Assembly (NCBI GenBank): GCA_918797485.1
Contig: CAKKNE010000002.1
Location: 5,422,501 to 5,486,500 of the forward strand
Origin: Pelagomonas calceolata
Taxonomy: Eukaryota > Sar > Pelagophyceae > Pelagomonadales > Pelagomonadaceae
Length of the DNA: 64,000 nucleotides
Direction: 5' to 3'
Below, in pieces: positions 40,653 through 52,680 of the stretch. Below the pieces are notes generated by a model. The model saw only the letters and a program-made list of their open reading frames with translations, did not search any database and was not told the origin of the DNA. A program made the translations under genes and the position numbers. Every line of letters starts with the position of its first letter. The first letter of the stretch is position 1.

Positions 40653-40724
40653 TGACCGATACGCGATTCGAACGCGTAACCTTCAGGACTGGAATCTGAC
40701 GCGCTACCGTTGCGCCAATCGGTC
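40653..40724 (-). tRNA. tRNA-Trp (CCA)
   Basis: A 72-nt cloverleaf reads on the minus strand from GACCGAT to ATCGGTC plus discriminator A. The acceptor stem pairs 7/7. The D-arm is TGGCGCAACGGTAGCGC, which is also a good internal A box. The anticodon loop is TTCCAGT with anticodon CCA; the stem pairs four of five. The T-arm has GCGTTCGAATCGCG (B box). It is intronless and CCA is not encoded. No clear T-run terminator follows within the next 40 nt. The D-arm and anticodon region agree with eukaryotic cytosolic tRNA-Trp. Confidence 0.92.
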
Positions 40725-50272: not shown

Positions 50273-51480
50273 TTACACCTCCGAGTCCGTATGGAGCTCG
50301 TTCCACTCCTTCCGGTACTCCGCCATGGCCGACAGCGACTCCTCGGCCGGGCGGTACGTCGCGGACCGGACCGAGACGGCGACGGCGACGTCCTTGGCCG
50401 TCACGAGCGAGTACGCGTTGTCGAAGACCAGGAGCAGAGTCGTATGGTCTTTGGCGGTCCAGGCGCCGCCGAACTTGGAGCCCGCGGCGAACGTGGCCGA
50501 CGGCAGCAGCCCGACCTCGACGGCGCCGCCGCTCGCCATGCGCCGCTCGCTCACCGAGAACCGCACGTCATGCGCGCGGACGCAGAACTCCCAGCGTAGG
50601 ACGTCGTTCCCCTGCACGACGTAGGGCAGCTTGACGACGGCGCGCGGCCCCACGCGCACGCGGTCGCCGGCGACGGAGTTCCAGTCCCCAGCGTCGCCGA
50701 GCCGCGTCGCGAGCGAGTTCACGACGCGCGGAATCACTCGCTTATCGATGACGTCCGAGGCGCCGCGGAGCACCGAGTCGGACGCGAGGGCCGCGCCCGA
50801 CAGCGCGGCGAGCGCGGCCACGTCGGGACCTGCGTGGTTTTTTGGTCGTTGTCTTTGTTGACCTTCGCGGCGAACGATTGGTCTCTCGCACCACGTACTG
50901 ATGGTAGAGCCTCCTCTGACGCGTTGCTCTCCACGCCATCGACGAGACGCCGTCAAGAGTGTTTGACCACCAGCACGCCATCGCCGCGAAATGGAATCGG
51001 ACGCCGACCGGGACCCGCCACCGCGCCGGCCAGGATCGTCGCGCCCGCCGCGGCCACGCCCCGGAGCTGCGCCCCCGCGATGCCGTCACGTTTTTCCGCG
51101 GGTGCTTCGGGCGGCTTTCGGCGGCGCGGCGGTCGCGGCGGCGGCGGGCGCGCCTCGGCGGCGGCGCGGCGCCGCCGCCAGTCGTCGCGGAAGGCGACGG
51201 CCTTCTGGAGCGCGTCCTCGCGGTGCCGCGCGGCCGCGTCGTGCGACGCTTGTACGTTGTGCAGGAGGGCGCGCGACGGCTGTGACGGTGGCTCGTCTGG
51301 CTGCTTTTCTGCGGGCGACGGCTCGTCGACGCGCTGTTCTCGTGCTCGGTCCTGATCTGCCTCCTCGAGTGCTTGCGCTATGGTTCGGTCTAGGAGCGCT
51401 TCCGTGCCGGCTAACGCGGCTCCGAGGAGTTCGACTTCGTCTTCGACCGCGGCATCGGCAGCGTTCGTGAGGGCCGCCAT
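50273..51480 (-). CDS. GOLD-domain protein, two exons
   Basis: Exon 1 is 51480-51015 and exon 2 is 50829-50273 (phase 1), giving 340 residues. The N-terminus is helical and charged (VEDEVELLGAALAGTEALLD, ALEEADQDRAREQRVDEPSP), then a basic proline-rich stretch and a small hydrophobic segment (GVAAAGATILAGAVAG). Exon 2 continues PDVAALAALSGAALASDSVL, then a GOLD beta-sandwich from about residue 240: AVVKLPYVVQGNDVLRWEFC, VRAHDVRFSVSERR, WTAKDHTTLLLVFDNAYSLV and KDVAVAVSVRSA. GOLD domains are found in p24, Sec14-like and Golgi proteins and act in vesicle cargo or lipid contacts. A cytosolic Golgi-associated role is inference. Confidence 0.72.
50830..51014 (-). other. Introner-like intron with 7-bp target duplication, 185 nt
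   Basis: Gene-strand intron starts GTCCCGGTCGGCG and ends CCACGCAG. The heptamer GGTCCCG occurs at both borders: the GT of the first copy is the donor, and the second begins with the acceptor G, as expected when an inserted element converts its target duplication into a splice site. It contains CGCGGCGATGGCGTG and CGTCGATGGCGTGG cores. Confidence 0.85.
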
Positions 51481-51587
51481 GTTGGCGCACCGAGGGCAGC
51501 CCCCAAAACGTCGCGATGGTGGTCGGGGTGTCGTTTTCGTGCAAGGGGGGGTGAGCACGCGTCTCCGGAGCAAAAAAAACGGGACGC

Positions 51588-51732
51588 TTCGAGTCAATCG
51601 CCTTAACCACTCGAGTGTGCACCGAATCATCGGTGTGCCACAGTATCTAATCGGTTGAACGATACTGACAGGACTCGAACCTAGGTGCTACTCTTCGGTG
51701 AGAAGGAGTAAGCGCATCTGACGATAATTGAT
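51588..51732 (-). tRNA. Candidate circularly permuted tRNA-Ser (CGA)
   Basis: On the minus strand the 3' half comes first. From A38 at 51732 it runs TCAAT (anticodon 3' stem), a long variable region, T-arm TAGGTTCGAGTCCTG (51684-51668), acceptor CAGTATC and discriminator G (51667-51660). A 12-nt spacer (51659-51648) follows, then the 5' half: acceptor GATACTG (51647-51641), an extra hairpin, D-arm CGAGTGGTTAAGGC and anticodon arm ATTGACTCGAA to 51588. Acceptor strands pair 7/7 and the anticodon stem 5/5. The leader GGGACGC (51744-51738) pairs 7/7 with the trailer GCGTCCC (51587-51581), as needed for intron-type excision joining the halves at position 37/38. A T8 terminator follows at 51579-51572. 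About 45 nt exceed a normal tRNA-Ser, in two hairpins (D region and variable region), perhaps further introns. Confidence 0.75.
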
Positions 51733-51933
51733 CTCCGGCGTCCCAGTTCTGGGAGATATCGGTAAATCTTTCGGTTATATTTTGTTTGTAAAAAAAACCC
51801 TTTTTTTGAGATTTGCCCGTCTGTGGGCGCGCCAAGGCACCAAAAACTGCCGCCGGAGCTCTTCTGCACGCAACGACGCAGCACAAACGACCCCGCCCAA
51901 AACGAGCACCCGTAAAGGCCCTCCCAGAGCCCA

Positions 51934-52680
51934 ATGCCCACCAGCCCCTCCAGCACTGCCCGCAGCGCCGCGTCGCCGTCCGCGGCCGCCAAACCGCAGC
52001 GAAACGGGCCCACAGCAGCGCGCATCTCCCTGCTAGCGGTACCGCTCCTGGCCATCGCGCTCTCGCGCCGACGCGGACCGCGCGTCTTCACGAAAGCCGA
52101 GCTCGCCCAATACGTGGACATCAAACACGGCTTAAAAGTAGCGATCTGCGGCCAGGTCTTCGACGTCACGAAGGGCGCCGAGTTCTACGCCAAGGGCGCG
52201 GGCTACGGCTTCTTCGCGGGCCGCGACGCGTCGCTGGCGTTCGCGACCGGCAACTTCAAGACGAATTTGACGGACAACGTCAGCTCGCTGGCCGACGCGC
52301 AGCTCCTCGACCTCCAGAACTGGGTCAACGACACGTACCACAAGAAGTACGTCCACGAGGGCGTCGTCGCGGGCTACTTCTACGACGCGAAGGGCCAACC
52401 GACGGAAGCCCACAAAGACTTCGACGAACGCGTCGAAAAAGCAAGGGAGGCCGCCGCGCGGCAGGCGCTCGACGTCGAGAAGTACCCGGACTGCGCGTCG
52501 CGGCGGACGCAGACGGAGCGTTCGGTCTCGTGCAAGAAGGGCCGCGTGCCGATACGCCGTCGAACAGAAACCGGCACCGAACGATGCGCCTGCGTCCTGG
52601 AACGCGACGAGGGGCTCGGCGCCAAGTACGAGAATTGCACCGTGAGCGAGGGCGGGCGGACGTCGTGCGCGCTCGGGTAG
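51934..52680 (+). CDS. Neuferricin/MAPR-like cytochrome b5 heme-binding protein
   Basis: 248 residues. The N-terminus is basic with a hydrophobic helix (ISLLAVPLLAIALSRRRG) that probably anchors it in a membrane. The MAPR-type cytochrome b5 fold follows: RVFTKAELAQYVDIKHGLKV, AICGQVFDVTKGAEFYAKGA, GYGFFAGRDASLAFATGNFK and LLDLQNWVNDTYHKKYVHEG. The tyrosine-rich GAEFYAKGAGYGFFAGRD loop is where these proteins bind heme. The cysteine-containing C-terminus (YPDCASRR, SVSCKKGRV, CACVLERD, YENCTVSEGGRTSCALG) resembles CYB5D2 (neuferricin). Heme delivery or binding in the endomembrane system is the likely role; the substrate is unknown. Confidence 0.8.
   Translation: MPTSPSSTARSAASPSAAAKPQRNGPTAARISLLAVPLLAIALSRRRGPRVFTKAELAQYVDIKHGLKVAICGQVFDVTKGAEFYAKGAGYGFFAGRDASLAFATGNFKTNLTDNVSSLADAQLLDLQNWVNDTYHKKYVHEGVVAGYFYDAKGQPTEAHKDFDERVEKAREAAARQALDVEKYPDCASRRTQTERSVSCKKGRVPIRRRTETGTERCACVLERDEGLGAKYENCTVSEGGRTSCALG

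Follow-up and report, generated by a model that had tools for sequence, protein, structure and literature searches.

The DNA analysed here is a window of 64,000 nucleotides of the genome of the open-ocean alga Pelagomonas calceolata (C2:5422501-5486500), taken from an assembly whose 8 contigs total 32,445,274 bases; the published description of the RCC100 genome gives 32.4 Mb in six nuclear contigs, plus one plastid contig (90 kb) and one mitochondrial contig (39 kb) (PMC9481584). On the minus strand of this window, positions 51744-51572 contain a circularly permuted tRNA-Ser(CGA) gene, in which the 3' half is followed by a 12-nt spacer, the 5' half and a run of eight T residues (T8) (Table 1). 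Judged by its letters, the identification as a permuted tRNA gene is convincing. The elements listed in an earlier sequence-only reading are all present: the acceptor strands CAGTATC and GATACTG pair 7/7 across the spacer (51659-51648), the anticodon strands TCAAT and ATTGA pair 5/5, leader and trailer pair 7/7, and T8, which we take to be an RNA polymerase III terminator, lies 3' of the 5' half, while the spacer between the halves contains no T run.

The neighbouring listed ORF, on the plus strand, starts at 51934 and encodes a cytochrome b5 domain, whereas a minus-strand ORF (50953-51630) that has no Pfam match is overlapped at its start by the permuted gene; its true start may be an ATG near 51480. 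In Cyanidioschyzon merolae, most permuted genes are described as having a TATA-like sequence less than 50 bp upstream of the 3' half (PMC3978253).

Table 1. Features of the permuted tRNA-Ser(CGA) locus, in the order of transcription (positions are those of the window)
Feature	Position	Strand	Evidence and remarks
TATA-like element TATAA, putative	51775..51779	-	Sequence; 31 nt 5' of the leader, 43 nt 5' of the 3' half
Leader arm GGGACGC, outer helix of the junction BHB	51738..51744	-	7/7 pairing with 51587-51581; pair probability in precursor fold 0.99-1.0
Leader remainder CGGAG	51733..51737	-	3/4 nt of the central-helix 3' strand, and 3' bulge
3' half, first exon	51712..51732	-	Nucleotide 38, anticodon 3' stem, variable arm, T-stem nt 1-2 (A38 TCAAT, T, ATC-GTCA-GAT, GC, GC); ARAGORN cloverleaf of rejoined sequence
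T-stem intron, 29 nt, position 50/51, relaxed BHB	51683..51711	-	Motif parse and restored T stem
3' half, second exon	51660..51682	-	Remaining T arm, acceptor CAGTATC, discriminator G (AGG TTCGAGT CCTGT CAGTATC G)
B box / T-arm word GGTTCGAGTCC	51671..51681	-	
Intervening sequence between tRNA 3' and 5' ends, 12 nt	51648..51659	-	Spacer TTCAACCGATTA
5' half, first exon, nt 1-11	51637..51647	-	GATACTG TG GC; ARAGORN cloverleaf of rejoined sequence
D-stem intron, 23 nt, position 11/12, strict BHB fit	51614..51636	-	Motif parse
5' half, second exon, nt 12-37 with anticodon CGA	51588..51613	-	C GAGTGGTTAAGGC G ATTGA CTCGAA
D-arm word GAGTGGTTAAGGC	51600..51612	-	
Trailer arm GCGTCCC	51581..51587	-	Pairs with leader GGGACGC; then a single G before T8
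T8, RNA polymerase III terminator-like	51572..51579	-	Sequence

The rejoined tRNA, its introns and the precursor fold

When both introns are taken out and nucleotide 37 is joined to 38, the sequence becomes an 81-nt tRNA-Ser(CGA) in which ARAGORN finds all stems, with 7 acceptor, 3 D, 5 anticodon and 5 T pairs (one G-U) and a short variable arm. This cloverleaf, together with the pairing of the elements, bears out the earlier assignment to tRNA-Ser(CGA) permuted at junction 37/38. Versions retaining either or both introns gave no tRNA in ARAGORN (three of three). The rejoined molecule is of the tRNA-Ser type, with a class-II variable arm, discriminator G and a serine body that is equal in length to the genome's own Ser(TGA) body and identical to it at 66 of 81 positions.

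The two introns interrupt the gene at 11/12 and 50/51 rather than at the canonical eukaryotic position 37/38, which is here the permutation junction. The BHB of the D intron consists of bulges GC-A and CT-C, a central helix TGTG/CACA with 4/4 pairs and a 6-bp hairpin (CACCGA/TCGGTG), with an exon-side helix of just 1 bp. No other site in the 5' half combines 4 central pairs with a hairpin of 3 bp or more; four plus six pairs arose somewhere in 2.4% of 1000 shuffled 5' halves, and at this fixed site random 23-mers gave 4 + 6 bp at a frequency of 0.00016 (0.016% of 200,000). The T intron has a relaxed motif (bulge GC-T, central helix ATGC/GCAC with 3/4 pairs, 5-bp hairpin, bulge CT-A), its central helix falling short of the strict 4 bp. 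The motif alone permits other borders with 3/4 central pairs, and these fit the stem less well; position 50/51 was chosen because removal of the intron there restores the T stem GCAGG/CCTGT, the stem of Ser(TGA). For the same reason, a long variable arm, which by eye would leave a T stem of four pairs (one G-U), was rejected as a reading of the extra sequence in the 3' half. The additional introns that the sequence-only reading had suspected can thus be placed, whereas its long variable region resolves into a short class-II arm (ATC-GTCA-GAT) and the 29-nt T-stem intron. The junction BHB is likewise relaxed, with bulges AA-G and AG-A and a central helix CTCG/CCGG of 3/4 pairs; its outer helix comprises, in register, 6 bp and one G-U, and its inner helix the 5-bp anticodon stem and a G-U.

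The minimum free energy of the precursor was -58.2 kcal/mol, as compared with -46.64 (sd 3.74) for dinucleotide shuffles (z = -3.09), one of 200 of which folded as well. In the predicted ensemble, the leader/trailer (0.99-1.0) and acceptor (0.79-1.0) helices are formed and the T-intron hairpin mostly so (0.51-1.0), whereas the variable arm stays unformed (about 0.05) and the probability falls to 0.50 and 0.17 at two pairs of the anticodon stem. The D-intron hairpin is present in the drawn structure; the central helix of its BHB has a probability of 0.00-0.02 in the ensemble of the whole precursor, and this BHB is thus not favoured, since nucleotides 6-7 are shared with the acceptor stem, which competes for them.

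A scanner demanding a T loop, 7/7 acceptor, T8, 5/5 anticodon stem and a leader/trailer helix of at least 5 bp in BHB register returned exactly one place in the window, the permuted Ser gene, and none in 150 first-order Markov windows; when the leader/trailer criterion was dropped, the real window gave two places and the 150 Markov windows together 61 chance matches. ARAGORN and Rfam (gathering cut-off) reported a tRNA-Trp at 40653-40724 as the only tRNA of the window and missed the permuted gene, indicating that ordinary tRNA finders overlook such genes. A model built with the window tRNA included (R1), and therefore circular as evidence, misplaces the anticodon and D stems in its printed alignment. 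A second model from which this tRNA was left out (R2) matched the same coordinates with 25.3 bits and an E value of 1.4e-6, ninth of 28 matches; among its four printed matches, L125 and L130 bridge neighbouring ordinary tRNAs. Both models therefore support the T-arm and acceptor core alone.

Serine decoding and other disrupted tRNA genes

Genome-wide searches with the D-arm word, the whole body and the anticodon word found no intact Ser(CGA) gene, as the sequence-only reading had proposed to check, although an isoacceptor with a very different body, or one broken at the search words, could be missed by them. The D-arm word occurs exactly at seven places in the genome, namely the six Ser(TGA) genes and the permuted gene, while the rejoined tRNA as a DNA query matched six places, all Ser(TGA), at 78-80%. 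The anticodon word GACTHGAAATC was found at 24 places, five of them with a CGA anticodon, none of which was tRNA-like on reading. In eight ORFs with a Pfam match (seven of the ten scanned ORFs of the window, the three without a match being excluded, and RtcB), TCG accounts for 106 of 270 serine codons and is the commonest overall, if not in every ORF. Ser(TGA) might read UCG by wobble, and thus the permuted gene need not be essential. The spacer region had no exact copy in viral and prokaryote contigs, as expected of collections that are not algal.

The P. calceolata genome seems to use BHB introns outside 37/38, as strict BHBs are found in Ser(TGA) at 53/54 and in the D and variable arms of other tRNAs. 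All six Ser(TGA) copies contain a 25-29-nt intron with a strict BHB at 53/54, and in one copy the intron hairpin is altered on both sides by paired changes. Among ten further intron targets, picked by eye and so giving no rate, strict-BHB removal yielded a tRNA with 7 acceptor pairs in five (Leu(AAG), Ala(CGC), Val(TAC), Leu(TAG) and Leu(TAA), isotypes as named by ARAGORN) and one with 5 acceptor pairs in Lys(TTT), whereas no such removal gave a tRNA at the other four (L118, L132, L157 and L096). Taken together with those of Ser(TGA), the strict-BHB introns sit in the D, T and variable arms. ARAGORN is permissive, accepting the Leu(AAG) and Ala(CGC) loci even unspliced. The Lys(TTT) gene (L050, C2 about 5803274-5803369, minus strand), which has its strict-BHB intron in the variable region, also shows by eye an insert in the acceptor stem, and the D-arm intron of Val(TAC) (L127) includes a run of seven T that might stop RNA polymerase III. 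Two PF01974 endonuclease genes are encoded in the genome, and the best solved chains for their proteins bear the names EndA-like or tRNA-splicing endonuclease, while Sen2 and Sen34 rank lower; RtcB ligase is encoded by one gene. The ligase family PF09511 gave no match in the genome, and its positive control also gave none.

Several other tRNA-like arrangements were observed. Just upstream of each Ser(TGA) gene lies a conserved element resembling a tRNA 3' half (GGACTGGAAATCTGAAGG, T arm, ATCGGTC or similar) with no visible 5' half (L051 about 1419-1465 and from 2528 on, L053, L054, L055 and L057). From copy to copy its T stem varies on both sides (GCGGG/CCCGC, CCGGG/CCCGG, ACGGG/CCCGT, ATGAG/CTCAT), and the element may be either a tRNA fragment or one of the halves of a split tRNA. 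Related nuclear tRNA-like sequences at L161 (184-255, minus strand), L144, L163 and L174, to which ARAGORN assigns CTA and TTA, anticodons that would decode stops, may be tRNA-derived repeats, since three of them share flanking letters. On contig C5, two tRNA-Sec genes adjoin tRNA-Trp genes (L172 131-217, L173 130-216).

Further permuted genes were sought with five B-box patterns (seven exact words), and all 174 exact nuclear places (54, 12, 40, 52 and 16) were examined, 62 of them in loci studied earlier and the others across 109 further regions; the resulting count is a lower bound, as 788 one-mismatch places and all other B-box words were left out. Of 182 distinct nuclear B boxes in the loci examined, three are followed within 30 nt by a 7/7-pairing 5' acceptor and then by T8: that of the window gene and those of L112 and L115, L120 being a near copy of L112. 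With shuffled flanks, a mean of 0.388 B boxes passed, and at least three did so in 10 out of 2000 rounds of shuffling; taken by itself, a pass of the acceptor test is thus no more than moderately rare.

L112 and L115 are candidate permuted genes for Arg(CCG) and Ile(UAU). At L112, with spacer GAAAC and junction 30/31, the rejoined 73-mer has all stems paired, and the junction BHB comprises TG-G, four pairs of CGTT/GACG (one G-U), CT-C and 6 bp. The locus reads with two introns, a 15-nt one at 37/38 and a T-stem intron of 24 nt, the latter with a BHB that is poor by eye. The second Arg copy, L120, is one base short near the junction, with 3/4 central pairs in its best register, which does not yield the 3' half of L112. 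L115, with a 3-nt spacer and its junction at 29/30 or 28/29, gives a full 72-nt cloverleaf, with no good junction BHB and no T run or terminator near by. Brute-force parsing of the Arg(CCG) and Ile(UAU) candidates produced loose ARAGORN matches (1354 of 10314 and 110 of 150) and no sensible answer; the parses reported here were made by hand and then checked, and had more freedom than that of the window gene.

Proposed processing of the precursor and alternative explanations

The locus at 51744-51572 is very probably a permuted tRNA-Ser(CGA) gene with two introns that is processed to a working tRNA, and we infer its expression, circle formation and splicing. Cutting at the junction and ligation of 37 to 38 would generate an RNA circle, from which the D intron (11/12), the T intron (50/51) and the 12-nt spacer would be removed by further cuts to leave the mature 81-nt tRNA. 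The RNA would have to be circularised and cut at several places in the cell, and the PF01974 endonuclease subunits and RtcB ligase are encoded enzymes that would fit such processing. Circular intermediates of permuted tRNAs are reported as found experimentally in red and green algae (PMC3978253). Use of the D BHB would presumably need the acceptor end to be opened, or cutting to take place before the acceptor closes, and our confidence is slightly lowered because this BHB is hardly formed in the predicted fold.

The same feature would suit a dead relic, neither expressed nor processed now, with UCG read by Ser(TGA) through wobble, as would the 3/4 central pairs of the junction and T-intron BHBs and the six Ser(TGA) copies in the genome. 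Such a relic nevertheless appears improbable, given that the stems of the mature tRNA all form, that helices of 7/7, 5/5 and 7/7 pairs persist between separate segments, that T8 and the TATA-like box are both in place, and that UCG is overall the commonest serine codon in the eight ORFs.

The remaining alternatives concern the order of the halves. Misassembly or rearrangement could have cut a tandem copy, or a pair of adjacent ordinary tRNA-Ser genes, into 3'-before-5' order. Tandem copies could give rise to permuted genes, and in the tandem array L016 a 3' acceptor is followed after 90 nt by the 5' acceptor of the next gene; however, such an event would not yield the 12-nt spacer, the leader/trailer helix in BHB register or T8, and the genome-wide searches found no ordinary Ser(CGA) as the source to be cut. 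As the layout is also seen at two other loci, and long- and short-read polishing and a Hi-C check are described for the assembly (PMC9481584), an artefact is very hard to credit. An equally slight chance is given to adjacent halves of a trans-spliced (split) tRNA, joined between RNA molecules with no single circle. Archaeal split tRNAs do share the BHB chemistry, including junctions at 37/38, 29/30 and 30/31 according to the available part of a review, but the 12-nt spacer has no T run, and the acceptor helix closes across it in the predicted fold.

A permuted gene with two ectopic introns in a stramenopile nucleus, together with other such introns in the genome, suggests a third lineage of algae in which relaxed BHB recognition originated or was kept. 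A broader interpretation, to which we give an about even chance, is that disrupted tRNA genes of archaeal style form an entire repertoire in this stramenopile nucleus. Several would be permuted and hold as many as two additional introns apiece, new junctions would lie within the anticodon stem (Arg(CCG) at 30/31; Ile(UAU) at 29/30 or 28/29), and BHB introns would occur in the D, T and variable arms. The endonuclease serving this repertoire would have been freed from the eukaryotic 37/38 ruler. The repertoire would have originated independently of red and green algae, with repeated permutation of Ser(CGA) at 37/38 in the course of evolution. With this case one can test what has relaxed the splicing endonuclease of eukaryotes, whether the recurrent permutation of Ser(CGA) is due to convergence or to common descent, and how the A and B boxes function when their order is reversed, the B box being upstream.

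Comparison with known permuted and intron-rich tRNA genes

In the literature searched, with most subscription journals outside its scope, no permuted tRNA gene was found among the papers listed for a stramenopile nucleus, a diatom, Aureococcus, a pelagophyte or Pelagomonas, none with two additional introns, and nothing on non-canonical tRNA introns in stramenopiles; the word 'tRNA' is absent from the main text of the genome paper in its available form (PMC9481584). A 2014 table lists 34 permuted tRNA genes from a single red alga, green algae, one nucleomorph of green origin and a single archaeon; their junctions are at 15/16, 20/21, 37/38, 50/51 and 59/60, and none has more than one intron (PMC3978253). 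Auxenochlorella (2025) and another chlorarachniophyte nucleomorph, that of Amorphochlora amoebiformis, were added in later accessible reports. The known cases named in the sequence-only reading did not include these two or Thermofilum pendens.

The closest counterparts, likened here by table description and not by letters, are the Ser(CGA) genes permuted at 37/38 that are listed for four prasinophytes and the Bigelowiella natans nucleomorph (PMC3978253). As in P. calceolata, the junction in this group (Ostreococcus, Micromonas and B. natans) is mostly 37/38 (type II), one O. tauri copy being of type V, and the spacers of 5-28 bp compare with 12 here; these genes are listed with no intron, as opposed to two in the present case (PMC3978253), and the present host is a stramenopile nucleus. 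C. merolae resembles P. calceolata in having several permuted genes, D- and T-arm introns, an upstream TATA-like sequence and a downstream T run, although its permuted genes have at most one intron and its three-intron Ile(UAU) is not listed as permuted (PMC3978253). In the archaeon T. pendens, permutation is combined with one intron and a junction at 59/60, rather than with two and 37/38 (PMC3978253). The green alga Auxenochlorella has reversed halves as here, reportedly found after tRNAscan-SE had left the tRNA set incomplete, while the cryptophyte nucleomorph and Crenarchaeota have D- and T-arm introns, two or three per gene, in genes that the accessible accounts do not describe as permuted. 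Permuted tRNA genes are thus already known, whereas the combination with two introns and the lineage in which it occurs are, as far as searched, new.
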